Shown one piece after another: positions 1-18,806 of a DNA stretch of 22,772 nucleotides. The first letter of the stretch is position 1. Every line of letters starts with the position of its first letter. A model generated the notes under the pieces. The model made no database searches. It was given only the letters and a program-made list of their open reading frames with translations, and was not told the origin of the DNA. Source of the stretch: a virus. The stretch spans positions 1-22,772 of the IMG/VR virus record IMGVR_UViG_3300025141_000825. One strand, 5' to 3'. A program made the position numbers and the translations under genes.

Positions 1-3000
1 TCTCCCGGCTCATTGCGCAAAATGGCAGGCATGCTGCCGGTGTCGAGGTACGTGTGGAGGGTGCGCAGAAGTTCCGTGTATGCGCTGATCTTGTCCACCC
101 CACCAGCGTTGTAGGATGTCCACCGCTTGTCGGCCCCCTTGTTCTTCTCGTCAACGAAGACCTTCTGAGCGCTCTTCTGCGATCTGCGGTATGCAGCTCG
201 GCGAGCGGTCTGGGCCACCGAGTCGGCGAAGATCTTCTTGCCCGTATCCCCCGCGAGCAGTCGCTTCGAGATCTCGTTGAGGAGGTTGACGTTTGCAACG
301 ACGTTGCCCTTTGAATCCCTGAACTCAAAGTCGATGTTCAACGGGACGATGTCGCCAGGCTTGCCAGACTCTGGCACAACCGGGGCCTGCTTCTCTTCAA
401 TCTGCCGCTCAATCTTGTCTCGGGTGAGCGCTCTCTGCCGGCGGGACATCCCCTCGCCCCTCTCCTTTAGGCGGCGCACGTAGATCTCAACGATGTCTCG
501 CGCCGCTTCCTGCCGGAACTTCTTGGAGCGGAGGATCTCGGGGATCCCATCGTCCATGCTCCGTGCGATGTTGACCTCTAGGTCGTTGATAAACCTCTCC
601 GCCTCGTCGCCACCTCCGGTCACTCGATCAGCCAGCGCTTGAATCTCAGCCCGACCCTTCTCCCCCATGTCGAGGCGAGGGGTCACCCTGTAGTCTGGAG
701 GTGTTCCGGCGAGCTCATGAGTACGGTATGGCCCCGTCTTCTTCTTCCTCTGGAGTTCCTCCATCAACTCGTCTGGGTGCTCTCCGTCATTCATGCGCTT
801 GCGCATGTTGGCCATGTAGGCCTGCTCTTCCCCCATCATCATGGTTGGGCGCGCGGCAACGTCCGGGGCTCCCCCCTCAGGGCGCTGTGTGATCGTGACC
901 TTCTCGGTCCACACCCTCGTCTCAATGGGTGCGCGCTCTCCCTTGTATACGCCCCATGGAGATCTACGCGAAGCAACAGACACCGCAGCCTCTTCTAGGG
1001 CAGCACGCCTCATCTGCGCCTCGACCACCTCTGGGGCCATGGGCCTGAGCGAGCCACGCTTCTCGCCAATCTCGGTGAGCGTTCTGGTGAGTTTGTTCAT
1101 CTCCCTGGCGACTGCCTTAGCGCTTCCTCTGCTCTTCTTCCTTGCGGCAACAAGCTTAGGCAGCGCAATCTCCAGAGCCTCTTCCCATGCTGCCACCTGC
1201 TCTGGCGTGTCCAGCTCAAAGGTCTTGGGCTTCTTTGGCACTCTGAACTCGTCTGAGCCTTTCCTGAGCCCAGTGGGAAGCTCCACCGTCATTGGCTCTT
1301 CGAGGTCCACGCGCCTGCTCAAGCCGCGCTGCTGCATGCGGTCGTTGAACGCCCTGATCTTCTCAGCCTCAAAGAAGTCTTTCTCTTCAGGGAGGATCTC
1401 GATGTCACGCAGGGACTCTGTTCCCCCCTTGCGCTGGGAGAACTGCACGTTTCGCACAGTAGCCACAGGGGCAGCACGCGGGCCTAGGCTGATCTCCCCA
1501 TCCAGGATGGTGGGGATCAGGGCCTCCACTGCGTTCTGCACAATGTTCTGCCTGGCGTTGGCCTCATTGATGGTGGCGTCTGCCAGTGCCTCTGCGTTCT
1601 TGCTGATGTTCGACTCGGAGGCTGCGATGTTGCGACGAACCGTGTCGTACTTATCCGCCGCAGCGCTGGACTTTATGCGCTCGATGAGTGGAGCTGCTAT
1701 CTCGTCGAGTTGATCCAGCATCTGGTTCAATGGGGCAGGCATCTTGGCACCGCTCGCCAGAGCGCCAGCCTTGAGCGCTTTGCCAAAGGCGAGCGCATCG
1801 AGGATCACAGTGGGCCCCTCTGCCTGGAGCTTTGCTGGAAGGTCGGTGATTAGCGCTGCGTAGGACGCCATAATGGCCGGCGGGATGTTCGCCCCAAAGG
1901 CGTCAGACGCAGCCCTTGACGCCATGAAGTTGTCAATAAACCCCCGAGCCTGTTGCTCTCCTCGGCTCATGGGGTACGCGCCAGACCCATAGACAATGAA
2001 CTGACCAAGGCCGTTGATCAGATCGATGACGTTCTGCTTCCAGAGGTTCGCCGTATACATCGACGCAAAGTCGGGATCATCCTCAAGTAGCTTGTTGAGG
2101 TGCTCCCTTTGGCTTTCGAGCTCCTTGAGCACGACGTCTGCTCTCGACTCAAGGCGAGCCCTGTCCTCTGCCTCCTTCACCTCTGGCCTGGCGAAGTCAT
2201 CTACTTGGTACGTGATTGCCTTGGGCTGCCCTTCCACGCCACCCACCATCGGAACGTAGACGACGAAGGTCTTGTCCCCCCTCTCCCTGGCCTGCTGCGC
2301 TTTCCGGTACAGTTCCCAGGAGTGGGCTCTTGTGATCGCATCTTGTTTGTCTTCGAGCCATTCACCTGTGGCCCGCCCCGCTCCCACGGCACCCCAGACC
2401 ATCCTCCCTGCCGCGAGGCCGGCCCACCCAGCGAAGTCGTCGGTCAGGTCAGGTGTCGGGATAATGCCCTTCGCCGCTGCAATCACAGCGTCTCTCGCCT
2501 TCATTCCCTCAGGCGGGAGAGCCTCCCCTCTCGCGTATTGCTGGGCCAAGTCTACGGCAGGGTCGTAGGCGATAAGCTCTTTGCCGTCCACCTCGCGCAC
2601 CGTAGTTGGACCGGGGGCAAGCTCCCCCTCTGCGACGTGTCGCCCCTGGACAGGGTCTCTGACCAGCCCCTCTTCCTTGGCCAGTTCTACATCGAGTCCC
2701 CGCTTGATGTAGTCAGCCATCTCTCCTGCGCTGCGGGTGGCAGCGCCGATGACCCCCTCTTTGCGGACGGGGAGCTTGAAGGGGTCCGGGTCTATTAGGG
2801 CTGCGGCTTCCTTCTGGCGTGCTTCCTCGTCCTTGCGCCTTCGCTCTGACTCGCGCCACGCCATGCCTTCGCGCTCACGGGGATCCGCGTGCATAACACC
2901 CAGCGACTCGGCTTCTGTGATGTCGATAGTCTCTACGGGGGACACGCCTCCTGGAGATGTCCTGCCAACGGCAGGCAGTCCAGGAGCGCCAAGGGATCGC

Positions 3001-3347
3001 AGAGTGTACTCCCTTTGCTGCTCCCCGGTGGGTGGAGGGGAGGCCTCCATCAACTGCTGGACCGACTGGAGGTCTTCCTGGGTCAATGATCTTTGGAACG
3101 GCGAAGGGGGCAGTTGGGGCTGGCGCTGCTGATCTCTCCTGCTTGCTGCCGCGAACTCCCCCGCCACGATGTCGTCCCCGAATGCGATCGACGCATTCAG
3201 GAGCTCGTCAGTTGGGATCTGCCGAGACAGGTCAGCGCCGCTGCCCATGATGTCCACGCCAGTCAAATACAGGATGCGCTCGCGCCCGTCCTCCAGAGAG
3301 TAGCCCTTGCTCTGAAGGAACTTCCCGTATTCAAGGATGCTAGGCAT
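1..3347 (-). CDS. Giant probable internal virion (ejection) protein, partial at 3' end
   Basis: The frame opens at an ATG that overlaps the upstream stop (TAATG) and stays open for 1115 codons to the window edge with no stop, so the C-terminus is missing. I read the translation directly. It begins MPSILEYGKFLQSKGYSLED, is charged and mostly helical, and has Pro/Gln-rich linkers near residues 75-130. A Gly/Ala-rich zipper-like stretch lies at about 304-328 (FAGWAGLAAGRMVWGAVGAG) and an Ala/Leu-rich segment at about 493-535. The remainder is rich in Lys, Arg and Glu with coiled-coil character. I recognised no enzyme motif: no SLT muramidase triad and no polymerase motif. In podovirus-type phages very large helical proteins at the end of the structural operon are often internal virion proteins ejected with the DNA. 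That role is inferred from size, composition and position only. Confidence 0.6.
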   Translation of the reverse strand, partial: MPSILEYGKFLQSKGYSLEDGRERILYLTGVDIMGSGADLSRQIPTDELLNASIAFGDDIVAGEFAAASRRDQQRQPQLPPSPFQRSLTQEDLQSVQQLMEASPPPTGEQQREYTLRSLGAPGLPAVGRTSPGGVSPVETIDITEAESLGVMHADPREREGMAWRESERRRKDEEARQKEAAALIDPDPFKLPVRKEGVIGAATRSAGEMADYIKRGLDVELAKEEGLVRDPVQGRHVAEGELAPGPTTVREVDGKELIAYDPAVDLAQQYARGEALPPEGMKARDAVIAAAKGIIPTPDLTDDFAGWAGLAAGRMVWGAVGAGRATGEWLEDKQDAITRAHSWELYRKAQQARERGDKTFVVYVPMVGGVEGQPKAITYQVDDFARPEVKEAEDRARLESRADVVLKELESQREHLNKLLEDDPDFASMYTANLWKQNVIDLINGLGQFIVYGSGAYPMSRGEQQARGFIDNFMASRAASDAFGANIPPAIMASYAALITDLPAKLQAEGPTVILDALAFGKALKAGALASGAKMPAPLNQMLDQLDEIAAPLIERIKSSAAADKYDTVRRNIAASESNISKNAEALADATINEANARQNIVQNAVEALIPTILDGEISLGPRAAPVATVRNVQFSQRKGGTESLRDIEILPEEKDFFEAEKIRAFNDRMQQRGLSRRVDLEEPMTVELPTGLRKGSDEFRVPKKPKTFELDTPEQVAAWEEALEIALPKLVAARKKSRGSAKAVAREMNKLTRTLTEIGEKRGSLRPMAPEVVEAQMRRAALEEAAVSVASRRSPWGVYKGERAPIETRVWTEKVTITQRPEGGAPDVAARPTMMMGEEQAYMANMRKRMNDGEHPDELMEELQRKKKTGPYRTHELAGTPPDYRVTPRLDMGEKGRAEIQALADRVTGGGDEAERFINDLEVNIARSMDDGIPEILRSKKFRQEAARDIVEIYVRRLKERGEGMSRRQRALTRDKIERQIEEKQAPVVPESGKPGDIVPLNIDFEFRDSKGNVVANVNLLNEISKRLLAGDTGKKIFADSVAQTARRAAYRRSQKSAQKVFVDEKNKGADKRWTSYNAGGVDKISAYTELLRTLHTYLDTGSMPAILRNEPG

Positions 3348-5020
3348 TACCAGCCCATCTTTTTGGCATCTGTGCCGCCGCCACCGGTAGTGCCTGTTGC
3401 GGGGGTGCCTGTTCTGGGCACGAACATCTCCGTCTTGTCCAGGCCAAGCTTCTTCTCAAGCACGTTGATCATGTTCTTGGCCTTGCTCATATCTGCCACA
3501 TAGGCAGCGCCCTTCTCTTCTTTGCCAACCAGAGACAGGCCATCATAGGACTTCTTGGCTTCGTTGTACTTCCCCGTCCAGTATTTGATCTTCTTCCACC
3601 ACGACTTCTCTTCTGGCGTCTCAGCTGCAGCGCTTCCCGCAGCCTTCTTCTTCGCACGCGCCTCCATGTTCTTGATCATCATGGCGACGTCGTCGTGAAT
3701 ACCCGTCTTGCCAGCGAGCGGCGCAACGACAATTGCCACCACCTTTTGATGCACGGTTGTCATGTCGTCCTTGCCAAACGCCCTGTACGGGTTCTTTTCT
3801 GGGACAGGCCTCCCAGACGTGACGGCATCAAGCCACTGAGCGTACGCGGCGACCTCGGTCTTTGCTTCTTCGCTTAGTCCCTTGGTCTTTGGCTTCCCTT
3901 TGAGCCACCTGCTCCACCGTCTCTTCTCTTTGGTGCTGAGAGTCTTTCGCCACTCTGCCATTGCCCTCAGGTGCTCGGCGCGAGCCACGTCGAGGTCGAT
4001 CCGAGCGGGACGCCTCTCGCGAAGGTCGGTCGCTTGCTCGCCTTTCAGCGCAGCCCCGGCGCGCTTTTGCTCGGCTCCGGCCTCAGCCTCTTCCACCCTG
4101 CTTGGCAAACGCCGCAGACGCTCTTCCGCCTTCGTCATGCGCTCCACTCGCCTGGTGTAGTCGTCGCCGCGCCGCGCCTTCTGCGATTGGCCCCACAGGC
4201 TGATGAGTTCCTTGCTGATCTGCTGAGTCTTGTCAGTGCCGCCGAACAGAAGCTCTGCCAAGCTACGCGGCGCATAGGCGGGGTCCTGCTCCACCACCTT
4301 GGGCACCATCGCCATCAGGGTGCGCACCACCTCAGGGCTCTTGGCTGTGGCGGCCAATCCGTACAGGTCAGACACCGTAAGCTCACGCTCGCGCACCACC
4401 TTCTCGATGTTTGCGAGCTCGGACTTGCGCTGCTCTGCCTCCTCCCTGAGCAGATCTTGGTAGACCTGCTGCCGAGTGATTGGCTGGGCTGGAGCGTCTT
4501 GCGCGGGGGCAGGGGCCTCGGCAACCGTCTCGGTAACCTGCTCCTCGACGATGGGCGCAGGAGCGGGCGCAGGAGCGGGCGCGGGAGGAGGCGGCACCAT
4601 GCTTGTCCAGGGCTCTGGCGCGGGCTCTCCTAGGCGTATCGGAGGAAGGGGCGGGCGTCCGGGGGAAACTGCCGCTCCCTGTTGCCCATACGTCTCAAAC
4701 TGGGGGGCAGGGAGTGCGCTAAGTTGCTCTCTGCGCTCGGCCCTCTTCTTGACGGCAGACTCCCTGGACTTCCGGCTCAACATGTTGACCAAGCCGCCAA
4801 CAAGGGTGTCGTCCTTCAGGACAAACTGTGCGAGCTGCGCCCACGCCATGATGTCACGGGGGTCAACGGACTCGCCCGCCTCTTGGCGTTTGCGGATCCG
4901 CTCTGCCTCCTGCATGACTTCAACCTGATTGGGCGTCCACCTTTGAGGCGATACCTGCTGAATGACCTGAGCCACGCCCGGAAGGCGCACAGGCATTGTC
5001 CCTGGTCTAATGCGTGCCAT
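3347..5020 (-). CDS. Proline/alanine-rich coiled-coil protein, probable internal virion protein
   Basis: This 557-residue protein starts at ATG 5020, preceded by GAGAGGT as ribosome binding site and 9 bases after the previous stop. The N-terminal 100 residues are helical and basic. Residues 105-175 are a Pro/Ala-rich linker containing an alternating Pro-Ala run at about 143-156, and the rest is charged, Lys/Glu/Arg-rich and probably coiled coil. The C-terminal tail is Gly/Thr-rich and ends in KKMGW. There is no signal peptide, membrane span or enzyme motif I can name. It sits between two other low-complexity helical proteins, so I infer a structural or ejection role. A scaffold-like role is possible, but a separate scaffold gene lies next to the capsid gene. 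Confidence 0.55.
   Translation of the reverse strand: MARIRPGTMPVRLPGVAQVIQQVSPQRWTPNQVEVMQEAERIRKRQEAGESVDPRDIMAWAQLAQFVLKDDTLVGGLVNMLSRKSRESAVKKRAERREQLSALPAPQFETYGQQGAAVSPGRPPLPPIRLGEPAPEPWTSMVPPPPAPAPAPAPAPIVEEQVTETVAEAPAPAQDAPAQPITRQQVYQDLLREEAEQRKSELANIEKVVRERELTVSDLYGLAATAKSPEVVRTLMAMVPKVVEQDPAYAPRSLAELLFGGTDKTQQISKELISLWGQSQKARRGDDYTRRVERMTKAEERLRRLPSRVEEAEAGAEQKRAGAALKGEQATDLRERRPARIDLDVARAEHLRAMAEWRKTLSTKEKRRWSRWLKGKPKTKGLSEEAKTEVAAYAQWLDAVTSGRPVPEKNPYRAFGKDDMTTVHQKVVAIVVAPLAGKTGIHDDVAMMIKNMEARAKKKAAGSAAAETPEEKSWWKKIKYWTGKYNEAKKSYDGLSLVGKEEKGAAYVADMSKAKNMINVLEKKLGLDKTEMFVPRTGTPATGTTGGGGTDAKKMGW
4553..4588 (-). repeat. 12-bp tandem repeat encoding the Pro-Ala run
   Basis: On the plus strand the unit GGGCGCAGGAGC occurs twice exactly (4553-4564, 4565-4576), followed by a diverged third copy. 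It encodes the alternating Pro-Ala segment of the 557-residue protein. Such repeats can change length by slippage in whole-codon steps, altering the linker without breaking the frame. Confidence 0.8.
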
Positions 5021-5029
5021 CTATACCTC

Positions 5030-5893
5030 TCATGCGCCCGGAGGTCCGCCTGGGCTATATACAGTCTCGGTGGATGGAGAACCCCCCTCGCCCATCGTCG
5101 TCCGCTGCCACCACCCGTTGCCAATGTGGACCCACTGCCCAGTCTGGCCTGCAGGGAGAGCCCCTGGAGGGGGCCCCTCTCCAGTGTGGACTTGAACTTG
5201 CTTAAGGGGGAGATCGCCTTCGGGTGGCATATGCTTGACCCATTGGCCATGTTCATTCTGATACCACTCGCCCACCGTCCCCGTCCCAGCCTCTGAGGGA
5301 ACGTGGTACTCGTACATGGGCGATGTCAATTGCTGGTTGAGTTGGTCAATCACCCACCAGTCTGGGCTTGCCTGCCCCGCCTCCAGCGCTAGGAGAGACT
5401 TGATCGCCTCATCGCGCGCAGCGCCCTTTTCGTAGGAGTTGATGATCTCGGCGTAGGAGGTCATCTTGCCGACGCGGTCTGTCATGGACGTGCCCATGGC
5501 CTGCGCCTTTGCGAGGACATCTGCCTGGAGTTGCGCCATGTCAAACTCAGGCGACTCTGCCGCCCTGGCCGCCGCCATCTGCTGCTCCTGCATCAGAGTG
5601 TCTGCCGCAGCCTGCCGCCCCATGGCGGCAGCAGCGCCCGTGCCCACCTCCATGCCTCTCGTAGCCTGCAGCATCCCTTCCGCAGCCTGACGCCTGCCTG
5701 CAGTCTGAGCCTGCTGGAGAATGCCCTCCCTCCGCGCCTGGTCCTTCTTCGCAGCCGAGATGAGGGCTTCATTGGCAGCCTTCATCTCTTCGCGCTGTTG
5801 AACCTCTTGAGTGAGCGGATTCAAAGACGCGAGAAACGCCGACTTGTCGCCATATTTCTTCTGGACTGGGCTTGCTTTCAACTCAGACGCCAT
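5030..5893 (-). CDS. Ala/Gln-rich helical protein with C-terminal Trp repeats, probable virion protein
   Basis: This 287-residue protein starts at ATG 5893 with GGGGGAAGG just upstream and 13 bases after the previous stop. Residues 25-150 are Ala/Gln/Met/Glu-rich and almost certainly alpha-helical or coiled coil. The composition resembles small internal core proteins of podoviruses, but I see no family signature. From about residue 205 the protein changes character: two short Trp/Gly segments, GEWYQNEHGQWVKH (about 208-221) and GQWVHIGNGWWQRT (about 252-265), look like imperfect repeats separated by a Pro-rich linker. The end is Gly/Pro-rich. It is the first of three consecutive helix-rich low-complexity genes, which suggests a common ejection or core role (inference). 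Confidence 0.55.
   Translation of the reverse strand: MASELKASPVQKKYGDKSAFLASLNPLTQEVQQREEMKAANEALISAAKKDQARREGILQQAQTAGRRQAAEGMLQATRGMEVGTGAAAAMGRQAAADTLMQEQQMAAARAAESPEFDMAQLQADVLAKAQAMGTSMTDRVGKMTSYAEIINSYEKGAARDEAIKSLLALEAGQASPDWWVIDQLNQQLTSPMYEYHVPSEAGTGTVGEWYQNEHGQWVKHMPPEGDLPLKQVQVHTGEGPPPGALPAGQTGQWVHIGNGWWQRTTMGEGGSPSTETVYSPGGPPGA
5099..5281 (-). repeat. Two imperfect Trp/Gly peptide repeats
   Basis: The C-terminus of the 287-residue protein carries two segments of the pattern G-x-W-(V/Y)-x-x-x-(H/N)-G-x-W. Each is about 15 residues and they are spaced about 44 residues apart. The match is by eye at the protein level; the DNA copies are diverged. Confidence 0.5.
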
Positions 5894-5906: not shown

Positions 5907-7955
5907 CTAGGTCAGAAACTTCTTGCCGATAATGTACACCCAATGCCCCTGATACCCCGAGATGAAAGTGTCAGCCGACTGGGCTCCCCCTGTAAACGCG
6001 CCTGATGCGTCGTCAGTGAGCTCGAGACCGCCTGTCACTCCGATGGTGACCTGTCCGGTCCCAGAGCCCCCCGTCACGGTGACGGTATCCCCGTCCGTAT
6101 AGCCAGTGCCTGGGTTGTTGACTGTTGCCATTGTGATCGCACCAGCAGTCACCTGAATGGTCAGCGTGAGCCCGCTCCCGCTTCCGCCGGTTGTGGGGTT
6201 TGAGAGGTTGTACGAGTAGCCTGACCCTGGCGTTGGGATCGCTGTAACTGAGGTTGCCCCTCCAACAAGGTTGTCGGAGATCCTCATGCGGACCTCAAGC
6301 CACTCCTCCTGTCCGTTGGTGCGGGGGGCTCGTTCGGACGCATCTCCCTGCAGGACGTTGGTGCGTACCGTTGTGCCAGCCTGATCGATTGCGGTTGGCG
6401 TCCAAGACCTCCCAGCGTAGTAAGGCTCCCCTTGTGTGGAGAATCCCCTGCCCTGGTTGCCGACAATCGGCACGTCTAGCAGGTCCCAGTCCCACCCTAC
6501 ATAGCCAGAACTGACGCCGAACCTGCCATATGCGCTGAAGCTTGCGGTCTTGATCACATCGATGAGCCCCAGCCCCCATGTGCCAGCCATCAGATTGGGC
6601 TGGCGCACGCTTAGGTCGGCAACCTGCTCGTACTGGAAGTCGTCCCCCTTGAGCCCGGTAGCAATGCCAACCCCTACGTCTACGGCAAACATGGTGGTCT
6701 GCGGCACCTTGAGCTGGTTGTTGGTGCCGCCTCCCCACTGCTGCGGATAGCTAATCCACCCCTGCCAGTTGTACGCGAGGATGACGTGGTGGATCTCCAT
6801 GGGGTAGGTAATCGGAATGATGCGCCTGTCCCACAGGGCGGACGAGCCGTCCCCCTTAATGATGTATGGCTCGTTCTCCACATCGTATGGGCTGATCCCC
6901 CCGTTTCTCCTGTTGGAGAACAGGGGGACAGCCATGACGAAGTAGCCAGCGTCGTTCTTGAGCTCCTCAACGGGACCGACCTCTCCGTACTTGTCAACGC
7001 CACCCTTGAACTTTGCCGCCACAGCCTCGTCTATCACGCCAAGGTTATCGGATATGCCGTCGTTGCTCACAGCATCGTTGGCCTGGATCAGCGAGTCCGT
7101 AGCGGGGGTGACGACGGTCACAACGTCCTGAGCCTTGGACTCTCGCGTCTGCCTGTCGTCAGCAAGAGGGGGGCAGTTCTGCACCTGAGGAGCCACAGCC
7201 GCAGTCCCGCGCTCTACAAGCTCGTGCTTGAACTTGAGGTCCACGTTGATGTTCGCAACGGCAACGTCCTTTGCCGCCAGGTCAGGGAACTCAATGGCCA
7301 GAGTGAGCGTCTTCCAAGGGTCAACCGCTTTGGCTATGTCCTTGACGACGAATGGGCCTTGCGCCGCCCACTGGTTGTAGGCGGCCTCAACGGTCCAGAT
7401 GGTGTTGGGGTTGTACGGGGTTGTGATGTCCAGGAAGTGGATGTTCTTCGACAGGATGGAGACGCGCATTGTCATCGCGTCCCAGTTGGTGAAGTCCATC
7501 CGGCCCATCTCTGAGCTGTTGCCGTAGGGTGCTCCAAGGAACTGGCTGGCAAGGGCTGTCGGTTCTGCACGCTGATCTACAGAGATAGACACCTCGTCCA
7601 GCACCACTGCGGGAGGAGGGTTCGTGTTCACGTTTGGGTACTTGCGCCCATCAAAGGTGTCATAGAAGAAGAAGTCCTGTAGTGGTGGCAGCATGAACGG
7701 GATGGAGAACGGCTTTGATACGTTGCCATTGCCTGCGAACACGTCGCCAACCTCTTGGAACTTACCCTCGATGTAGGGAACGGACAGGTTGACCCTAAAG
7801 GAGCCCCACTTCCTCTCCACGTTGTCGTTGTCAAGGCCTGCCGTGTTGATGTTCTTTGCAATGCCTGTGGCGGCTGCGCTTGAGAGGGGGTCGGTCAACT
7901 GAGACGGGACAAGCTTGGTTCCGCGAGACAGCCTCTTTCGGTCGAACTTGGGCAC
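5907..7955 (-). CDS. Phage structural protein with C-terminal GTGY repeats
   Basis: This 682-residue protein starts at GTG 7955, which shares its last G position with the preceding TAG stop (TAGTG) and has a strong GAGGAGG site upstream. It begins MPKFDRKRLSRGTKLVPSQL. Residues up to about 560 look like a soluble beta-rich structural protein with many Trp, Pro and Asn residues, no signal peptide and no membrane span. Residues about 565-640 form a Gly/Thr repeat region (GSGY near 577, GTGY near 616, then a VTVTGG strand). The last 30 residues (ending GHWVYIIGKKFLT) look like a separate end motif. I cannot name the fold. Its place after the nozzle and beta-helix genes suggests a tail, collar or fibre component; a capsid decoration protein is the alternative. 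Confidence 0.7.
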   Translation of the reverse strand: MPKFDRKRLSRGTKLVPSQLTDPLSSAAATGIAKNINTAGLDNDNVERKWGSFRVNLSVPYIEGKFQEVGDVFAGNGNVSKPFSIPFMLPPLQDFFFYDTFDGRKYPNVNTNPPPAVVLDEVSISVDQRAEPTALASQFLGAPYGNSSEMGRMDFTNWDAMTMRVSILSKNIHFLDITTPYNPNTIWTVEAAYNQWAAQGPFVVKDIAKAVDPWKTLTLAIEFPDLAAKDVAVANINVDLKFKHELVERGTAAVAPQVQNCPPLADDRQTRESKAQDVVTVVTPATDSLIQANDAVSNDGISDNLGVIDEAVAAKFKGGVDKYGEVGPVEELKNDAGYFVMAVPLFSNRRNGGISPYDVENEPYIIKGDGSSALWDRRIIPITYPMEIHHVILAYNWQGWISYPQQWGGGTNNQLKVPQTTMFAVDVGVGIATGLKGDDFQYEQVADLSVRQPNLMAGTWGLGLIDVIKTASFSAYGRFGVSSGYVGWDWDLLDVPIVGNQGRGFSTQGEPYYAGRSWTPTAIDQAGTTVRTNVLQGDASERAPRTNGQEEWLEVRMRISDNLVGGATSVTAIPTPGSGYSYNLSNPTTGGSGSGLTLTIQVTAGAITMATVNNPGTGYTDGDTVTVTGGSGTGQVTIGVTGGLELTDDASGAFTGGAQSADTFISGYQGHWVYIIGKKFLT
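6036..6263 (-). repeat. GTGY peptide repeat region (copy in the 682-residue protein)
   Basis: It contains two units of the form Thr-x-Pro-Gly-(S/T)-Gly-Tyr followed by a strand such as DGDTVTVTGGSGTGQVTIGV. The segment encoding NNPGTGY closely resembles one in the adjacent gene at the DNA level (AACAACCCAGGCAC shared). Glycine-rich repeats of this kind are common in environmental phage virion proteins. Confidence 0.75.
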
Positions 7956-9346
7956 TACTCAACCTCCTCAAGCATCGTCGCACTCATGGTGTAGTAGGTG
8001 TTGCCCCAGGGCTCCCTGCCCCACCATGACGGTCCATCGCTTGGCCATGCCTCAAGCTCGTATCTTGGGATCACAATCGAGACCCTGAGAATGGCGTTCT
8101 GGTGAATGGGGATATTGAGCTCGTTCAACTGTATGACCGCTCCCCTGATAGCACCACCAGGATACAGGGTTGGGGTCATGTCGTCCCATCCAGGCCCATC
8201 AGTCGGGAGGTCCTCCTGCTTGTGCCACGAGAAGGAGTCCATCTTGATCATGAACGTGTGCCGCTGGATCTCAGCGGAGTCCTTTGCCCTGATCCTGTTG
8301 TCGAACGTGTCGGCAACCTGCACCACCAGTTGCATGTCCGTGGCAGGCATGCCCGCAATGGCTCCAGCGTTGTTATCGGTTCCGGTCCACTCAAAGTTGC
8401 CGAACCCGACATGCTCGCCAAAAGGCTTGTTAACAGAGTCCCTGTGGTCCTGGCAAAGCATCAACTGTAGCGCGTCGAAGATGGCAGGCCTCCCAACGAA
8501 CAACTCGGTTGTCCACCCGTATTGCTCGCCAAGGGGCCAAGCCGTCCCCGCGTCTGGCATCTGGTTGATGATACCGGAGGTAAGGGTGCCCTTGATGCGG
8601 AAGTCGTTGAGGAATGACGAGGGGACGGATGACCCTGTAGCCACCTTCCCCTCTCGATTCCAAGTCCCCACCCATGGCCAATGGTGTCGATACTTTGGCA
8701 TCAAGGTCAGGGCACAGTTGCCCGCACTGATGGTGAGCTGCACTCGCCCCGCTCCGTCCCCTCCAGTAACAGACAAGACATCGCCAGTCGTGTATCCGGT
8801 GCCGCAGTCCCTGATCTTAACACCCGTAATCGCACCACCACCACCAACCGTAATGTCCAAGGTGAGCCCGGTCCCCCCAGCAGGGGCAACGGTGGTCGCC
8901 ACATTGGTGGCATTGACATAAGTGGCACCGGCAGCAGTAATAGCCCCCACGTACCTTGTGGGCGTGATGACTTCGCCAGGCACGTACCCTGTGCCTGGGT
9001 TGTTGATGGTTGCGCCTGTCACAACGCCGGCTGTGCTGACGAGGTCTACCGTCATGTTACTTCCGCCGAGACTTGCGCTGGTAGGCGTGTCCCCTGTGGC
9101 GGTTGTGTACCCCGTCCCGCCACTCGTGATCACCAGATCGAACGTGGCTGCGTGGGAAGAGGGCTCGGGCATCCACCCCCACACCCTGTCCTGGGGTATG
9201 AACCGAGTCTTAATGGCAGACGGGGGCATTGAATTGAAGAACGAGACGGTGTCTTCAAGCGCTCGATCAATACGGGTGCCGTCCACCGTTGTGGACTCAG
9301 AGAACTGCTCATCAGTGATGATGCGCGTGTGCTTGGTCTGTGCCAT
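7955..9346 (-). CDS. Phage structural protein with N-terminal GTGY repeats
   Basis: I chose ATG 9346 (MAQTKHTRIITDEQFSES, 463 residues) because it overlaps the previous stop as TGATG. The in-frame start 57 bases upstream would run back into the previous gene. Residues 1-65 are a conserved-looking head, and 69-208 are inserted Gly/Thr repeats with GTGY at 77-80, 118-121 and 182-185. From about 217 a Trp-rich beta domain follows (HHWPWVGTWN) and continues to the end. There is no signal peptide, membrane span or catalytic motif. With the following 682-residue gene it forms a pair carrying the same repeat type. A tail-fibre, collar or head-decoration component is likely but unproven. Confidence 0.7.
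   Translation of the reverse strand: MAQTKHTRIITDEQFSESTTVDGTRIDRALEDTVSFFNSMPPSAIKTRFIPQDRVWGWMPEPSSHAATFDLVITSGGTGYTTATGDTPTSASLGGSNMTVDLVSTAGVVTGATINNPGTGYVPGEVITPTRYVGAITAAGATYVNATNVATTVAPAGGTGLTLDITVGGGGAITGVKIRDCGTGYTTGDVLSVTGGDGAGRVQLTISAGNCALTLMPKYRHHWPWVGTWNREGKVATGSSVPSSFLNDFRIKGTLTSGIINQMPDAGTAWPLGEQYGWTTELFVGRPAIFDALQLMLCQDHRDSVNKPFGEHVGFGNFEWTGTDNNAGAIAGMPATDMQLVVQVADTFDNRIRAKDSAEIQRHTFMIKMDSFSWHKQEDLPTDGPGWDDMTPTLYPGGAIRGAVIQLNELNIPIHQNAILRVSIVIPRYELEAWPSDGPSWWGREPWGNTYYTMSATMLEEVE
8723..9142 (-). repeat. GTGY peptide repeat region (copy in the 463-residue protein)
   Basis: Three units carry Gly-Thr-Gly-Tyr at protein residues 77-80, 118-121 and 182-185. Each is preceded by a strand of the type ITGVKIRDC or VTGATINNP and followed by a GDV/GEV strand, the last also by VTGGDGAG. 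The alternation of short strands and glycine turns suggests a small beta-repeat fold. Confidence 0.75.
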
Positions 9347-9927
9347 CAGATACTCGCTGTAACGGTGGCTGTGCCGTATGCGTGGGTGGTCTTGTTGTAG
9401 CAACCCACGATCTGAATATTGCCCGCAGCTCCAGAGTGGTCAAAGAGGTTTCCGGCTACAGACGGGTCCCCTTTGAACACGCAGCCAACGAAGATCGCCT
9501 TAGCCCCAGCCACGACGCTGACAAACGTGGTCTTGTCGGACGCATCCTTCTCAAAGGTGCAGTTCCTGAAGACAGCGACCGACGTGCCACGGATGTTAAT
9601 GAGTTCATCGGTGTTGTCAGTCGATGACGTGAAGTGGATCCCGTCAAACACAGCATCTGCCTCAATGATGACCTTTCTGGTCATGTAGCACCCAGCGGAC
9701 AGCGCTCTGACGGTCGTGTCTGCCACTCCAATCCTGCACCCAAAGTTCCTTCCGGCAGGAAGCGTTATGGCGTTGTTGGTGGGCGCAGGCTCCTCTATTC
9801 GAGCCGGGGCTGGTCCATCAATACCCACCGCTGCCACGACGTTAGCTACGTCATCGCGCACCTGCTGGTTGAACATCTCAACCTTCGTGAACCCCTCTTG
9901 CTGGGGTATCTCAAAGACACGCCCCAT
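9346..9927 (-). CDS. Small right-handed beta-helix (pectate-lyase-like) virion protein
   Basis: This 193-residue protein starts at ATG 9927, overlapping the nozzle stop as TAATG with AAGGGGCAGG upstream. Residues 1-50 form a helical N-terminal segment (KVEMFNQQVRDDVANVVAAV) that could attach it to the virion. After a Pro/Ala linker, residues 58-193 repeat the rhythm of beta-helix rungs: VFDGIHFTS, INIRGTSVAVFRNCTFEKD, VVAGAKAIFVGCVFKGD, IQIVGCYNKT, with stacked Asn/Cys turn positions. This pattern is typical of parallel beta-helix tail-fibre and tailspike proteins, but the protein is far shorter than a tailspike and shows no catalytic residues. A fibre base or adhesin tip is a reasonable guess. 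Confidence 0.6.
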   Translation of the reverse strand: MGRVFEIPQQEGFTKVEMFNQQVRDDVANVVAAVGIDGPAPARIEEPAPTNNAITLPAGRNFGCRIGVADTTVRALSAGCYMTRKVIIEADAVFDGIHFTSSTDNTDELINIRGTSVAVFRNCTFEKDASDKTTFVSVVAGAKAIFVGCVFKGDPSVAGNLFDHSGAAGNIQIVGCYNKTTHAYGTATVTASI

Positions 9928-12914
9928 TACCTGCCCCTTCTGCGGCGACCACCGAGACCGGCAACCCTGACAAGAGCCTTGATAGACTCAAACACAAGCC
10001 CCTGCCCGCGCTCCTGAATGAAGCCAAAGACCATGTAGGTGAACGTGCGCCCCTTCACGGATAGCGACGTCGCCATGACCTCTGGGTTGGGGTCATCCAC
10101 TAGGTACGTGCCCTGCGTCTTGTTGTCGAGATCGCTGCTGCCGTACTTCATCCCAGCGGTGCCAAAGGTCTTCTTGATGAGGCCGGCGGCAGCGTCCTTC
10201 ACTCGCGTGCGGATCGTCTGCTCAGAGCGGGACTCTTCCCACGCAGGGCTATCTGCCGAGCTCGCAGTGGTGTCTACCACCTGCATGGTCCAGCCTTTCT
10301 GCTCTGAGGCGACGGACACGTTAAACAGGCCATACACCCAGTTGGGCACGAGGTAGTTGGCCACAGTGGCCGGCCCGCGTGACAGGAACCGGGAGAAGAG
10401 GCCTCGCGCCTTCATGCCCTGCTCTCCACTGCCGACCATCTGGGACTTGTAGGCCCAGTCAACAGGCTGGGCTACGTTGTCGTGCTTTCGCTTGTCCGTA
10501 GTTGTCCACTGCTCCCAGGGTATGAAGCCCCCGTCTGTTGACCACGTCAGTCCAGAGCCCGTGTTGTTGTTCTTGATCCATGGCAAGTCTTGCCCATCAA
10601 CTGCCTGGCGAGATGCGACAAGCCCCATGCCGCTAACGCTGTAAGTGCCCGTATTGGCGCGCATGGGGATGTAGATGATCGTGGACTTTCGCCTTGGGGC
10701 GATGTTCATGTACGGGTAGTGATACCAGTCTGACCCGGAATGACCTGGGCCATCCCCCCTCCACTCAATGCGAACCATGTCGCCAGAATAGATGGGCACT
10801 GCTGTCGCTGAGTTGGCCACCTGAACGCGCTCGTCTGTTCCCATCACGTTGGGAGACCCTATGGTCGTGTAGTAACCCTTCCAGCTCGACACCCTCTCGG
10901 AAGGGAGCAGGAAGTCAATCTGGGTGTTTGCCGTCTGGTCTTCTCCCTGGACCACGGGCTGCCACTTGGTTGGGTCAAACCTGAACCAGAGCTTGAACTG
11001 CTGCATGTAGTACTCTGTGACCCCAGCGTCTAGCAGCGGCATGGATGGCACAAGCGAAACCGGAAGGAGCCAGACATTGTCGTTCTCGGTGACGGTGTAG
11101 CCCAGCGGGAACACGTATCCCTTGGGAACAGGTATCCACGGATCGATGTACCATGTGGACCCATTGATGTAAGGGGTGTGCCCGTCAGAGGCAACAGTGT
11201 ACTTCCCGGCGATAAAGCGGTCATCTTCGTTGCGAATAGACCTGTCAATGCCGCCACCCCTTCCATAGCGCAGTATGTACGCAGAGAAGGACTGCACATC
11301 GTCATCGACGTCCACCACGGCAGCGTCTGGCTTCCACTTGGCCTGATCTGCAAGCTTCTGCTTATCAGCCATTCCAACCAGAAAGAGGTCACGCTGCCCA
11401 GACACAAGCCATGGGTTCGTTACGAACCCATCCGGGTTGTCGGCGTTCTGGACAATGCCTGGGTAGGAGTTCGTCGCAGATCCGCCACCCCCGCCAGTGG
11501 CTGTCGCGTAATAGACACTGGAGGTGTAGCTCCAAAAGGACCACATGCTGTTGGCCAAGCATATGGTGAGGTTCTGCTCAGGAACTGTGATCAGGAGCGC
11601 CCTGAGCTCGGGAGAGTACACGCAGTTGACGCCCGGGTCTTTGAAGTACAGGGCTGTGTGCGGCTGTTGGGTATCGAGAGGCGTGAACCCAGACTCCTCC
11701 AGGAACGACGTCAGCGGGTTGGAGACGTAGTCGGTGAAGTACGCATCTACATGTCCGCTTGAAAGGCGGACCTGTAGATCTCCCGAGTAGGTGTAGACCC
11801 CAGACTTGTCCACGAAGAAGAGCATGTCTTCGACGCGCACGATTGCGTTGGGACCAACGCAGCCCACGTTGTCGGAGATAGCCATGAGACGCCCGCCAGA
11901 GACGGTCGCCCCTGCAGACGGCTGGAAGATGAAGGTCTCGTCAGAGGTCAACATCACGAGCTGCCCGTTGATCGCGGCCATTGCGACCACATCGCCTTCA
12001 GACGGCAGCGTGATGAAGTTGTCCGTGCCAATGGTGGTGGGATCACCAGACTCGCTGAAGAAGATGGTGCGCCCAACCGCATAGACCAGGCGACTGCCCA
12101 TGGAGCAAACCACGTCAGGGGTGCCCACTTCGTCCTGCTTGAAGAAGGCCTCTGACTCGCCAACCTCTGTGCGCGGGACCTTGATCGTAGCCTGCTGAAC
12201 CAGGGAGGACTCGCCATATGGACGCGCCCAGTCGTTTCTGTACTCAGAGTCAATGAACCTGAAACGGGGCTTCTGCGGGAATGTCCCCGGCACGTAGTAC
12301 ATGAGCCCAGTGCGCTTGGACCCAAAGAACAGAACGTCCGTGTCACCACGGTAACTGTACTCCTGGAAGTAGAAGTAGTCGTCCTTGTCAGCCCCTACCC
12401 ACTTCTGAGCGTCTGCCTCAAGGTTGGTGTCGTAGTGGCCGAACCACCCCTCCATCCCATGCCCAAGGCTTCGCGAGCTCGTGACCTGCCCCTCTACTTG
12501 CTGCGCCGACGTGTGAACGTAGATGGGCTCCTCCCATCTGGTGTCCGTTGTCGCGTCATAGATGTTCACGCAATAGAGAGGCAGCAGTTGGGTCTTGTCG
12601 GGGCCTGAGCCCGTGTTGTTCTTGCAGTAGAACACTGAGATGATCTGCTGGTTCCCGGTTGAGGTTGTGATCAGCCGAGAGCCGAGGTGCTTCTGATAGC
12701 CCCACTTCAGCGAGATGCGGTCTGCGCTACGCGCAACGTCGGTTGTCTCGTTCATAGGCATCTGGGTGGTGAACTGAGTCACCTGCCCGAAACCCTTCCG
12801 AACGTGCCACGCTCCCTGCCTGTGGATCATGTTGAGGGCAAACGCGCCACGGGTCGGCTCGACCACATGAGTGCCGCCCTCTAGAAGCTCAACCTCTTGC
12901 CCTGCTACTGCCAT
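9927..12914 (-). CDS. Large tail nozzle-type (beta-propeller) protein
   Basis: This is a 995-residue protein. ATG 12914 is supported by GGGGTGAT immediately upstream, which overlaps the previous TAG. The N-terminus (MAVAGQEVELLEGGTHVVEP) is followed by beta-rich sequence. A region starting near residue 265 has blade-like repeats: GSRLVYAVGRTIFFSESGDP, then GDVVAMAAINGQLVMLTSDE, then MLFFVDKSGVYTYSG. This repeated strand pattern is what T7-gp12-like and P22-gp10-like nozzle proteins of podoviruses show, and the gene follows the adaptor candidate, where the nozzle is expected. The C-terminal 350 residues are Trp-rich and end in a basic GGRRRRGR tail. No enzyme motif is visible. A distal tail hub of another type is the alternative. 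Confidence 0.6.
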   Translation of the reverse strand: MAVAGQEVELLEGGTHVVEPTRGAFALNMIHRQGAWHVRKGFGQVTQFTTQMPMNETTDVARSADRISLKWGYQKHLGSRLITTSTGNQQIISVFYCKNNTGSGPDKTQLLPLYCVNIYDATTDTRWEEPIYVHTSAQQVEGQVTSSRSLGHGMEGWFGHYDTNLEADAQKWVGADKDDYFYFQEYSYRGDTDVLFFGSKRTGLMYYVPGTFPQKPRFRFIDSEYRNDWARPYGESSLVQQATIKVPRTEVGESEAFFKQDEVGTPDVVCSMGSRLVYAVGRTIFFSESGDPTTIGTDNFITLPSEGDVVAMAAINGQLVMLTSDETFIFQPSAGATVSGGRLMAISDNVGCVGPNAIVRVEDMLFFVDKSGVYTYSGDLQVRLSSGHVDAYFTDYVSNPLTSFLEESGFTPLDTQQPHTALYFKDPGVNCVYSPELRALLITVPEQNLTICLANSMWSFWSYTSSVYYATATGGGGGSATNSYPGIVQNADNPDGFVTNPWLVSGQRDLFLVGMADKQKLADQAKWKPDAAVVDVDDDVQSFSAYILRYGRGGGIDRSIRNEDDRFIAGKYTVASDGHTPYINGSTWYIDPWIPVPKGYVFPLGYTVTENDNVWLLPVSLVPSMPLLDAGVTEYYMQQFKLWFRFDPTKWQPVVQGEDQTANTQIDFLLPSERVSSWKGYYTTIGSPNVMGTDERVQVANSATAVPIYSGDMVRIEWRGDGPGHSGSDWYHYPYMNIAPRRKSTIIYIPMRANTGTYSVSGMGLVASRQAVDGQDLPWIKNNNTGSGLTWSTDGGFIPWEQWTTTDKRKHDNVAQPVDWAYKSQMVGSGEQGMKARGLFSRFLSRGPATVANYLVPNWVYGLFNVSVASEQKGWTMQVVDTTASSADSPAWEESRSEQTIRTRVKDAAAGLIKKTFGTAGMKYGSSDLDNKTQGTYLVDDPNPEVMATSLSVKGRTFTYMVFGFIQERGQGLVFESIKALVRVAGLGGRRRRGR

Positions 12915-12923
12915 CGATCACCC

Positions 12924-13631
12924 CTACATGAACTGATGAGAGGTGCGCACCTGAGACACGTACTGGGCCCCGTTGTAGTTCCTCGTGTTGAGGTACTCTG
13001 TCAGAGCAGAGGACCGCTCTTGCAACTGAAACAGCAGGGGCTCGTTGATCACACCATCAAGGATGAAGTACTGCTTCGCCGCCAATAGCGCGATTACGTC
13101 GTGGAACAGCGATAGGTTGTCCACAAACGAAGTGCCCGTTGACCAATCAACGTAACCAGCACCAGGACCAGGGACAGCGCCCGTCGCAGTTGGCTCCGGG
13201 AAATACGTGAGCTGCAGGTCCACCGTCATCGCGTTGCCAAACCGGAGGAACGTGTTGTCAAGGAAGAATGCGTCCGATGTCTCCAACAACGACCCGCGAG
13301 TCGTCACTGGCGTCATCGGAGTGTTCGTCGTCCCATCGCTGTTCGTGGTGCAGAGAGAGACGAGCTTCAGCATGCGCGGCTGCGTAAGGTTCGCGTCCGC
13401 TCCAAACACCCTCAGGGCGTTGCCAGGGTCCGCCAAGTCGTAACTCGCTACCCCCGCCAGGGACAGCGTTGCGTTGGTCGTGTAGATGCTTTCGTCTACC
13501 TGGAGGACGGTCCACTGGAACTCCCTGTATGCCTGAGCCAACATGGTCGCGGCCATGGCGTCTGTGATGAAGGTCTGGTCAGGCTCGTCGATGTACTGCC
13601 GAAACAGGCTAGTAATCTCGCTTACGATCAC
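12924..13631 (-). CDS. Probable head-tail connector (adaptor) protein
   Basis: This 235-residue protein starts at GTG 13631. The GTG overlaps the portal stop (GTGA), with GGAGGGGG upstream. Residues 1-50 are helical (MIVSEITSLFRQYIDEPDQT, then AYREFQWTVLQ). The middle is beta-rich (TNATLSLAGVASYDLADPGN) and residues 175-225 form a long helix (DNLSLFHDVIALLAAKQYFI). An N-terminal helix, beta insert and C-terminal helices, directly after the portal and before the nozzle, match adaptors such as T7 gp11 and P22 gp4 in position and size. The assignment rests mainly on position and architecture, as I see no diagnostic motif. Confidence 0.55.
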   Translation of the reverse strand: MIVSEITSLFRQYIDEPDQTFITDAMAATMLAQAYREFQWTVLQVDESIYTTNATLSLAGVASYDLADPGNALRVFGADANLTQPRMLKLVSLCTTNSDGTTNTPMTPVTTRGSLLETSDAFFLDNTFLRFGNAMTVDLQLTYFPEPTATGAVPGPGAGYVDWSTGTSFVDNLSLFHDVIALLAAKQYFILDGVINEPLLFQLQERSSALTEYLNTRNYNGAQYVSQVRTSHQFM

Positions 13632-15550
13632 AGGGCACCCCCTCCGCGCATTGCAGACATCAAGGCTTCATTGCGGTTGGTGCCCGCCCTCTCCGCTCCA
13701 GCGAGGCTTCCTGGGGCTTGCTGCCTCGGTGCCATTGCCTGAACCCCCTGGGGGGATGGCTGTGGAGGACCAGGCGGGGGTTGTGGGCCCATCGCCTGGA
13801 GCGGAGAGGGGGCAGGGCGAGGCCAGACAGTGAGGCTTTGTGCAGCCATCTCATACGCGCCGGGAGGCATGTTCGCGGTGTTGATCGCGACGAGGATCTT
13901 GGAGATGTGATCCTGCGTATCGTCTGGCAGCCCATAGAACTCGGTGGACTGCATGAACTCTGTGAACACCTTCCTGAATGCTTCGAGGTCGTCTGACTTG
14001 TAGATCTGAGGATCTGCACCGAGCTTGACGCTCTCAAGGATGTCACGAGCGTGCGCCATGCCGCGCACCTTCTCGGAGACAAACGAGTTGCCCGTCCTGA
14101 AACTGAGCTCATCCATGGCGATCTTGGGATCAAGGAGCCCGAGTTGCATCAACTCGATGACCTTGGCGTCTCGGTCTTGCGCCTCGTGGCGGAACAGTGA
14201 GCCGGCCTCGATGAAGACCTCAGGGTCTTCCGAGAGGTCAGTCCCCTGGATGATCTTGAATGCTGCTCGACCCGTGTGGTCGAGCATCCTGATCATCTTC
14301 TCCTCAGTGTAGTAGTGCTTCATCAGCATGAGCGCTGTCTTGGCCATTGAGGCAACGGAGGCCTCAATGTCGTTCTGAGTGCCCTGCAACTGGCTCGTGT
14401 CGTAGGAGGCCAGGGTCTCCATCGCCTTGCCCGAGGTCACGCCCACTGCGCGCTTACCAAGGGTCACAGAGTGCAAGCCAGCCACGTCGCCCATCTCGCT
14501 CTGGATGCGGGTGATGTTGTCAATGACGTGGCTGGGGATGGCAGCTCCAGTGATCTGCTCAGGCTTCCCTCCCGAGGGGTTGTAGTAGATCTTCTCCCCA
14601 ACCCTGTTGGTGATCGCACTCGCCGCAATGCCAGCGGTCTTGGGCACCACCCACTTGGGGTTGGACATCATCTCGATGTTGTGGACAACCTGGGTCCGCG
14701 CCTTGTTGTACAGCGTCTGCAAGTCAAGCAGAGGGGCCAACAGGCTCAAGCCCCACAGCCGCCTGGGAATCACAGAGTAGCGGACAATATCCACAGGGAA
14801 CGCGCCGACGGGGAACATCTCTTTGTAGAGGTAGGTGTTCCCCATCACGATGGCATGGCGTCCGTCTCTCCAGTAGATCTCAAACGTCTCGATCCGATCA
14901 GGCGGGAACTCGCCAGCGGCATTGGGCTGCCTAATCTCCTCGTCGCCTGGCGAAGCAGCAACCGCAACCGCGATCTCTTCAGCGTGATCAGGATACGCCT
15001 TCTTGAGCTCGGCGCGTGGGAAGAAGCTTCTCAGCGCAATGAACTGAGACTTCTCAGGCTCCAGCACACCACCCTCAAAGAAGATGTCGTAGGCACCGAA
15101 CGTCTCAAGCCTCACCGTCTTGGTCCCAGGGTCATAGTAGGTGTGCAGGGCAGCGGTTCCTGTCGTGAGGATCCACTCCAGCATCTTGGTGAGCGTCACC
15201 TTCACCTTCTCAGCCTGCCAGAAGTACTTGAGCGTCATCTCAGAGGTCTGAGCCTTGATGATGTCGTCATAAGCAGGAGAGGCGGGAACAACTGCCGTGG
15301 ATGGGTAAGCCATGGCCAGACGAGCCAACACGTTCCGGTAGGTGTTCAGCAACAGGTTGACCGTGACCCGGAACAGTCCGTCATTGCGGGGAGGAACAAC
15401 AGGCGCGTACTGACCAATCCGGTCGTCAAAGTTGAGCCACTGTCGCCCTTCAAGGAACAGGAGGCTCAGGTCCCACAAGCGCTCCTCAGTGCTCTTGTCC
15501 TCCTGAGATGTAGTCAGGATGCCGTTGACGTTCTGGGGAAACTCCCTCAT
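13628..15550 (-). CDS. Portal protein
   Basis: This 640-residue protein starts at ATG 15550 in an ATGA overlap. It forms the dodecameric ring through which DNA enters and leaves the capsid. Supporting sequence: LEGRQWLNF at 33-41, the helix VTVNLLLNTYRNVLARL at 62-78, GTAALHTYYDP at 131-141, YDIFFEGG at 154-161, and a central segment near 270-300 reading LDLQTLYNKARTQVVHNIEM. That last pattern (Gln, Tyr-Asn-Lys then a long helix) is typical of podovirus-type portals. The length fits the family. The last 80 residues are Pro/Gln/Ala-rich and disordered, so probably not part of the ring. Its position downstream of the capsid gene is unusual. Confidence 0.85.
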   Translation of the reverse strand: MREFPQNVNGILTTSQEDKSTEERLWDLSLLFLEGRQWLNFDDRIGQYAPVVPPRNDGLFRVTVNLLLNTYRNVLARLAMAYPSTAVVPASPAYDDIIKAQTSEMTLKYFWQAEKVKVTLTKMLEWILTTGTAALHTYYDPGTKTVRLETFGAYDIFFEGGVLEPEKSQFIALRSFFPRAELKKAYPDHAEEIAVAVAASPGDEEIRQPNAAGEFPPDRIETFEIYWRDGRHAIVMGNTYLYKEMFPVGAFPVDIVRYSVIPRRLWGLSLLAPLLDLQTLYNKARTQVVHNIEMMSNPKWVVPKTAGIAASAITNRVGEKIYYNPSGGKPEQITGAAIPSHVIDNITRIQSEMGDVAGLHSVTLGKRAVGVTSGKAMETLASYDTSQLQGTQNDIEASVASMAKTALMLMKHYYTEEKMIRMLDHTGRAAFKIIQGTDLSEDPEVFIEAGSLFRHEAQDRDAKVIELMQLGLLDPKIAMDELSFRTGNSFVSEKVRGMAHARDILESVKLGADPQIYKSDDLEAFRKVFTEFMQSTEFYGLPDDTQDHISKILVAINTANMPPGAYEMAAQSLTVWPRPAPSPLQAMGPQPPPGPPQPSPQGVQAMAPRQQAPGSLAGAERAGTNRNEALMSAMRGGGAL

Positions 15551-16511: not shown

Positions 16512-16516
16512 CTCCT
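16512..16516 (-). promoter_or_regulatory. Ribosome binding site of the 58-residue membrane protein
   Basis: AGGAG on the minus strand lies 6 bases before ATG 16505 and overlaps the TAG stop of the capsid gene. It supports this short frame as a real gene. Confidence 0.7.
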
Positions 16517-17912: not shown

Positions 17913-18806
17913 TTATGCGAATGGATTGTGCTTGGTGAGGAACTCACGCAGAAGTGCGGAGCCCTCTTCCACAGACTGGGGTCGCTCGTCGTTGGCCCAG
18001 ATGGACGGCACCTTGCCAGACCCCTTGAGCGGACGAGGTGGAGCACTTGGAGTAGACGCATCCTGCGCAGCGGTCGCCTCGGCCTTCAGGGCGTCAGCGA
18101 GTTGTGGGTTGTCCTTGAGATACCGCGCAATGGCGCGCTCCTCGACAGACGCAACGTAGGTAGACACCTGCTCCGCGATCTCCATGACTGAAGCCTGCGG
18201 ATTCTGGACGACACCCTGGAGAACCTGCCGGCGATCAACGCCAGGGAACTTCTCAAGGGCAGCGCCCATCTCGCGTTCCAACTGCATCTTATGCAGCGCA
18301 ACGCCCTGTGCCTCGACTTGCTGGGCAAGCGTGTGGACTCGTGGGTCTGGCTGAGGCGCAACAGCGTCAGCAGTCTCACCAGCGAGCTCATCAAGCCAAC
18401 CATACTCATCTTGGCTCTGCACTGGAGCTTGTTGCTTGGACTGAACGATCTGCTGCTGCAGATACGATGCCTGTTGGGCTTCGAGGTCCTTAAGCTGGGA
18501 ACGCAAGGCAGCCACCTCGTCACGGTGGCTATTACGAGCTTCCAAGACTTGCTTGAACCTGCCGTAGGGCACGTTGTGTCCACTCTCGTCACCGCTCGGA
18601 ACCTCGACGGAAGGCTCTGGAACTGTGGCGGGAGGCTCCTCATTCGCGCTCAGATTAACGTCCTGCGCAGGGGACGAAGGCTCAGGGGCTGTCTCAATCT
18701 GAGGCGCAGGAGTGGGAGGCGCGGGAGGCTCCGGTGGTGCTCCACCGAGTGCCTGATCAAGCGCAGGACCCATTCTCTCTATCGCATCAGCGTCAAGCAA
18801 ACCCAT
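17913..18806 (-). CDS. Capsid assembly scaffolding protein
   Basis: This 297-residue protein starts at ATG 18806 with ACGGAG upstream, 13 bases after the terminase stop. Residues 20-75 are Pro/Glu/Ala-rich and disordered. Residues about 79-92 read VPYGRFKQVLEARN, a motif I know from many phage scaffolding proteins. Residues 92-126 form a Gln/Leu coiled coil, a helical middle follows, and the C-terminus is basic then acidic (EEGSALLREFLTKHNPFA). Composition, the motif and position immediately before the capsid gene all agree. Such proteins guide procapsid assembly and leave or are cleaved before DNA fills the head. Confidence 0.85.
   Translation of the reverse strand: MGLLDADAIERMGPALDQALGGAPPEPPAPPTPAPQIETAPEPSSPAQDVNLSANEEPPATVPEPSVEVPSGDESGHNVPYGRFKQVLEARNSHRDEVAALRSQLKDLEAQQASYLQQQIVQSKQQAPVQSQDEYGWLDELAGETADAVAPQPDPRVHTLAQQVEAQGVALHKMQLEREMGAALEKFPGVDRRQVLQGVVQNPQASVMEIAEQVSTYVASVEERAIARYLKDNPQLADALKAEATAAQDASTPSAPPRPLKGSGKVPSIWANDERPQSVEEGSALLREFLTKHNPFA

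Follow-up and report, generated by a model that had tools for sequence, protein, structure and literature searches.

The stretch analysed here, referred to as the window, is an entire IMG/VR virus record of 22,772 bp (IMGVR_UViG_3300025141_000825). Its minus strand encodes, in order, the small and large terminase subunits, a protein in the scaffold position, the major capsid protein, the portal protein, proteins of 235, 995, 193, 482, 682, 287 and 557 aa and, last of all, the giant protein with which this study is concerned. The giant gene (1..3347, minus strand) overlaps with its start the stop of the preceding 557-aa gene (TAATG) and leaves the window before its C-terminal core. From the ATG at 3347 the frame is open to the window edge (in frame 3-3347, 1115 codons), and the odds of any given start staying open for that long, estimated from base composition, are about 8e-17. 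The initial annotation, which was made from the sequence alone, had reported a frame without a stop down to base 1; the frame is indeed uninterrupted, and the window merely ends there, the stop following after 1888 codons in a near twin.

This twin (IMGVR_UViG_3300012952_000006; G001; 39,738 bp) shares 83-91% DNA identity with the window over the window's length and carries the entire giant gene (L002:358-6024). Because its ends share an identical 123-bp stretch and the window crosses that junction unbroken, the twin probably represents an entire genome, about 39.6 kb in length. Every one of the 1115 window codons aligns to L002:358-3702 with 87% amino acid identity, and since dN/dS is 0.095 across them (dN 0.080, dS 0.843), the giant frame is a real gene under purifying selection. 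Its first fifth evolves fastest, with a pN/pS of 0.27 between window and twin against 0.11-0.13 elsewhere. Neither a stop inside 1-3347 nor clear homology to a non-virion protein, the two outcomes named beforehand as refuting, was encountered.

The protein had also been described as helical, of low complexity and furnished with two Ala/Gly-rich hydrophobic stretches. A helical fold is plausible, as an AlphaFold2 segment came out mostly as helix, and unproven at a mean pLDDT of 41. The low complexity is mild: the entropy in 40-residue windows has a mean of 3.60 and a minimum of 3.19 bits, compared with means of 3.72-3.85 for the portal, major capsid, large terminase and 995-aa proteins. As for the two stretches, residues 304-328 are rich in Ala and Gly (56%) and residues 493-535 less so (37%), and their best 19-residue hydropathies (1.02 and 1.30) both lie below 1.6, the customary threshold for a membrane helix.

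We collected relatives through a profile of the 995-aa neighbour, which led to 78 viral contigs. A homologue of that neighbour was present at 83 loci, 20 of which, on 17 distinct contigs, extend at least 8.5 kb after it. A frame of at least 700 aa starts 5.8-7.3 kb beyond the homologue at 19 of these 20 loci, and at the last one (L065) the contig stops within a frame of which 509 aa are present. The 15 complete giants range from 1279 to 3233 aa. What unites them is a C-terminal core of some 350-450 residues, located at about 1223-1660 of the twin protein and thus past the window edge, with the motifs K..xT..N.....NN..SN, Y...Dn.FK, a short beta stretch, F.DY..vP and SPF.TW..k.mD.PG.K.G. A model of this core (A10) detected it in 18 of the 20 giants tested, complete or fragmentary (E 1e-255 to 1e-13), eight of them from contigs used in training the model and ten from contigs not so used; neither of the two misses, an N-terminal fragment and the window protein, extends as far as the core. 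Counted by contig, the core was matched in 15 of 17, the other two (L065 of G022 and L085 of G028) again ending before it, and 13 of 26 further records searched were matched as well. Pairwise BLAST found the core to be widely common and the N-terminal part to be common only within subgroups. The giant is, then, a conserved gene at a fixed place whose core is constant and whose N-terminal part changes in sequence and length.

It had been suggested that a new enzymatic domain might lie in the part missing from the window. That part, judged from the twin, comprises 773 aa, in which there is no Pfam match below E 0.087 and no PHROG match below E 0.34; the conserved family core occupies it instead. 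The window protein and the full-length twin likewise have no credible match to Pfam or PHROGs (nothing below E 0.08), and neither the twin nor the family found a match among PDB sequences; the initial annotation had recognised no known motif. A tblastn search with five giants or parts of them against 50,697 phage records returned no match, nor was there an annotated isolate of the window's clade among these records. We found no published description of the family in the open-licence literature, which is no proof of its absence. The giant family is new to the libraries searched, unusually large and modular. A giant of Podoviridae sp. ctLwi270 (L023 30523-34773) was rejected as a relative, its matches being at chance level; it is annotated as 'large tegument protein uL36', a herpesvirus name and very likely a mis-annotation.

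An enzyme-like domain is predicted in a single member. Among the 18 family rows scanned, the 3233-aa giant of a distant relative (G023) contains, upstream of the core, a NADAR-like stretch at about residues 1667-1755 (L139, about 5240-5510, plus strand). It matches PHROG 1017 (E 4.8e-8) and PHROG 652 (E 9.2e-7), and in Pfam GP30.3 (E 1.1e-4) and NADAR (E 0.0067), both of the latter below the gathering score; the best PDB entry is YbiA (2b3w; E 0.12), whose alignment pairs the SNF, E..QA.K and D..W stretches. A MerR-like match and other single Pfam matches among the family rows were weak, and no use was made of them. According to a passage in a 2022 survey (PMC9503650), phage NADARs are typically standalone proteins. 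If the insert is real and delivered, phages would bring an ADP-ribose-directed enzyme with their DNA, within a giant protein.

The operon upstream is that of a podovirus-type phage, as the initial annotation proposed, and the giant does close it, in a conserved position after the 287-aa and 557-aa genes. All of its genes lie on the minus strand: the terminase small (20457..20948) and large (18820..20457) subunits, a 297-aa protein in the scaffold position (17913..18806) that is conserved in a distant relative of 24,844 bp (G006), the major capsid protein (16515..17900), a portal protein of P22/SU10 type (13628..15550) and a 235-aa protein in the head-tail adaptor position (12924..13631). There follow the 995-aa virion or tail protein that served as the anchor for finding the clade (9927..12914; PHROG 511, internal virion protein, 3287 and 578), a clade-conserved 193-aa protein (9346..9927), a 482-aa virion protein with a PHROG 697-type domain (7955..9403, its true start nearer 9346 according to the alignment) and a 682-aa virion protein (5907..7955) whose C-terminal ~100 aa match PHROG 697 'structural protein' and others. 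The 995-, 235- and 682-aa proteins had no match among PDB sequences, and tblastn of a 933-aa neighbour against the phage records found none either. The last two genes before the giant encode the 287-aa protein (5030..5893; 54% identical to a 289-aa protein of L006) and the 557-aa protein (3347..5020; 45% to 539-aa proteins of L006 and L018), putatively the small and the medium member of an ejection cassette.

The order from the portal to the giant is retained in a contig of 23,372 bp (G003) and in G006. BLAST homology in G006 extends to the portal, 235-, 995-, 193-, 482- and 682-aa proteins; the 287-aa protein has no match to the syntenic protein of 230 aa there, and the 557-aa protein only a weak, partial one (26%) to its syntenic counterpart of 681 aa. 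The G006 giant (1784 aa) stands in the same place, its C-terminal half 21% identical to that of the twin (E 8e-17). The same operon, with a TerL 60% identical, is also carried by a contig binned in a Micavibrio metagenome-assembled genome (MAG; L028 1-13299), and a viral contig of equal length (IMGVR_UViG_2778261100_000001) has the same gene coordinates as this one. Micavibrio is thus a weak host lead for the clade; in the class to which the Micavibrio MAG (G009) belongs, the core was found in 0 of 385 genomes, a search that lacked a positive control and shows little, and likewise in 0 of 3.

Several smaller observations concern the surroundings of these genes. Similarity within the operon links the last ~100 aa of the 682-aa protein to a domain of the adjoining 482-aa protein (40% over 70 aa by way of L006, PHROG 697 matching the two), which by sequence points to a shuffled virion domain. 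Upstream of the small terminase gene, at the opposite operon end from the giant, lies a cell-wall enzyme, a transglycosylase-like frame of 181 aa (21598-22143, minus strand; PHROG 38211, E 2.4e-7). Its end is overlapped in a different reading frame by a 93-aa frame (21426-21707, minus strand) that begins MPTKKATAKKAPAKKAP, its start being histone-H1-like and rich in Lys, Ala and Pro. A 138-aa protein (22140-22556, minus strand) has two hydrophobic segments (hydropathy 1.82 and 1.50) and is possibly a holin. In another locus (L009 7146-7700) an extra 184-aa gene sits between the 229-aa and 933-aa genes, its start resembling, by eye, a GIY-YIG homing endonuclease.

Beyond the clade, we looked for relatives among podoviruses of Actinobacteria. 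Arthrobacter phage Jasmine (gp29), Microbacterium phage Shocker (gp37) and Cellulosimicrobium phage DS1 carry giants in the same place as the window giant, as the third of three genes of rising size: 238/431/1803 aa in Jasmine, 244/417/1743 in Shocker and 247/441/1783 in DS1, compared with 287/557/giant in the window. The giants are alike in size (1743-1803 aa) and in a colinear core; they differ in that BLAST or single HMMs find no similarity, and none was detected between the N-terminal parts. The Shocker giant matches PHROG 36598, the function of which is unassigned. With a deeper core alignment of 15 cores (A12), the score against the actinophage type was 37.9, above 100 of 100 shuffles. 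With 29 actinophage-type sequences hhalign reached a score of 52.5 over 241 colinear columns ending SPFYTW in the family and PFYSW in the actinophages, a score attained by 0 of 60 shuffles (maximum 21.5) and by none of the unrelated alignments (maximum 19.2); the probability of 79.4% remains below 90% and the E-value of 1.5e-5 is, like all such hhalign E-values, a one-pair and uncalibrated figure, which tells against the reading favoured below. A full-length comparison (A14) placed its best match on the same region (71%, E 3.7e-5). Scores thus climbed with alignment depth, from 28.0 through 37.9 to 52.5, and it was only after this deepening that we accepted the homology; the earlier negatives are negatives of shallow profiles, and as such they stand. 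With caution, we take the family core, before which the window protein ends, as remotely homologous to the C-terminal part of the actinophage giants of the Jasmine gp29 type. Jasmine is a podovirus by electron microscopy, as described in part of PMC5513430, and Shocker and DS1 would also be podoviruses, judging from shared genes.

Taken together, these data make it probable that the giant is a podovirus virion protein, packaged inside the head for ejection along with the DNA, which combines a core with a variable N-terminal part. As outlined in a section of PMC8954989, podovirus ejection proteins are encoded by three genes, ordered small, medium and large, and many of them have been recognised by size and position; the 287/557/giant order fits this podoviral order, and we read the three genes as a putative ejection cassette. 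The giant would be packaged in the head and accompany the DNA into the envelope or the cell. The conserved core may do a common task, such as packaging, threading through portal and tail, or anchoring or forming an ejection channel; the variable N-terminal part may adapt to the host envelope or defence and might accommodate inserted domains, the NADAR-like one of a single relative being an example. The giant's partners would be the 287-aa and 557-aa proteins encoded just before it, in the way that T7 gp14 and gp15 accompany gp16. The initial annotation had placed ejection or virion-associated enzymes at this site: the operon end and the order of the trio agree with it, and the enzymatic domain suggested for the missing part does not appear.

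A number of results weigh on the other side. The gene, its place, its core, its variability and its remote homology were computed; packaging, ejection and the division of labour we infer for every member. The window itself does not contain the core, which is known only from the twin and other relatives. Neither Pfam nor PHROGs nor PDB gave a sequence match to any proven ejection protein. No hydrophobic helix of membrane strength was found in the twin giant (19-residue hydropathy at most 1.37), and by hydropathy the 287-aa protein has no membrane helix either (best 0.54). AlphaFold2 models of two giant segments were weak (pLDDT 39.9 and 41.4), and Foldseek with these low-confidence models returned nothing at E 0.001. 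In the early comparisons with the actinophage giants, the shallow core was not above shuffles (hhalign 1.6%, score 28.0), another shallow comparison scored 21.3 where one of 30 shuffles scored 22.3, and single-HMM matches stayed at the level of shuffled decoys.

The same evidence bears on three other explanations. That the giant closes a structural operon would also suit a virion protein that is not ejected, whether a stationary tail or head-interior component with a structural or an assembly role (tape-measure- or chaperone-like). Many tape measures are long helical proteins, and the Foldseek lists, at a meaningless level, contain many of them; the listed matches over 500 columns had TM-scores of at most 0.14, and the lists were not used. 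We regard this explanation as unlikely, given that the portal is of P22/SU10 type, that the small-medium-large order fits ejection cassettes, that the far relatives include the short-tailed phage Jasmine, and that a span of 1279-3233 aa is odd for a length-fixing tail part in short-tailed phages. Another explanation takes the giant for a gene of lysis or host takeover that merely lies downstream of the structural genes. In its favour, a lysis-type gene comes next in each of the three actinophages Jasmine, Shocker and DS1, which makes the operon end a border. The fixed place right after the 557-like gene and the TAATG coupling speak for the structural side of that border, and the Jasmine authors, in the relevant part of PMC5513430, used database comparison to assign genes 11-29, the giant included, to virion structure and assembly. 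A non-virion protein is therefore very improbable here.

A further alternative holds that the giant is an effector first, of polyvalent type or resembling a virion RNA polymerase (vRNAP), with a catalytic N-terminal domain too divergent to recognise, and would be brought into the host in order to act on it. The NADAR-like insert of the 3233-aa relative points in this direction, as does the location of phage polyvalent proteins among late virion genes, reported in a part of PMC5512222. Set against them, no effector domain was found in the window protein or the full-length twin, HExxH is absent from all 20 family sequences, and the giant has no RNA polymerase match in Pfam or PHROG, nor in PDB at E up to 10. 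Credible enzyme-like matches amount to one in 18 members, and to 0 of 19 actinophage-type giants at E 0.001. An effector of this kind seems to us quite unlikely.

Returning to an ejected virion protein, one may tentatively go a step further, although we hold this extension to be doubtful: the core could be a general delivery domain, common to phages of widely differing bacteria, that passes giants into podovirus heads and hosts, with exchanged N-terminal parts making it a swappable platform. Most of its cargo would then be helical envelope-crossing parts, and some would embed a counter-defence enzyme such as NADAR. Were this true, the window's phage would be one carrier of a platform for virion-delivered proteins. 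Podoviral ejection proteins diverge fast. This core, recognisable in 15 of 17 environmental contigs and, by remote homology, in cultured podoviruses such as Jasmine, offers experiments on them a handle.

How the giant compares with known systems can be stated for three of them. With T7/P22 gp16 it shares the position, being the third gene and the largest in a trio ordered small-medium-large (287/557/1888 aa in window and twin), and the strong divergence between phages that a part of PMC8954989 describes. It differs in showing no sequence match and no transglycosylase domain, in its size (1888 aa compared with the 609-1337 aa given there), and in that T7 gp16 has putative C-terminal membrane helices and its partner gp14 membrane helices, which the giant and the 287-aa protein, judged by hydropathy alone, lack. 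Membership in the T7 gp16 group is rejected, there being no sequence or profile match and no membrane-strength helix. The polyvalent proteins with LPD38 (PF18857) are, like the giant, giant late-gene proteins, and by eye their LPD38 regions share a similar series of elements. The actinophage C-terminus against the LPD38 profile was suggestive (probability 42.8%, later 15.5%); the family core compared directly with nine LPD38 loci gave 0.4% over 21 columns, which is not significant, and a Pfam search had no LPD38 match at E up to 10. As neither the window protein nor the twin has two or more recognisable domains, the multi-enzyme architecture of polyvalent proteins is missing, and both LPD38 membership and a direct LPD38 link are rejected on the core comparison. 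N4 vRNAP (gp50) differs from the giant in being about twice as large and in its polymerase module and HExxH motif; as neither of these two was found in the giant, membership in that group is rejected too. Gp50 resembles the giant in being a giant late-gene protein of a podovirus. For gp50, a part of PMC5512222 reports that encapsidation requires the C-terminal region and injection the N-terminal one, and it is this division of labour that we have used as the comparison for the split between core and N-terminal part in the giant.

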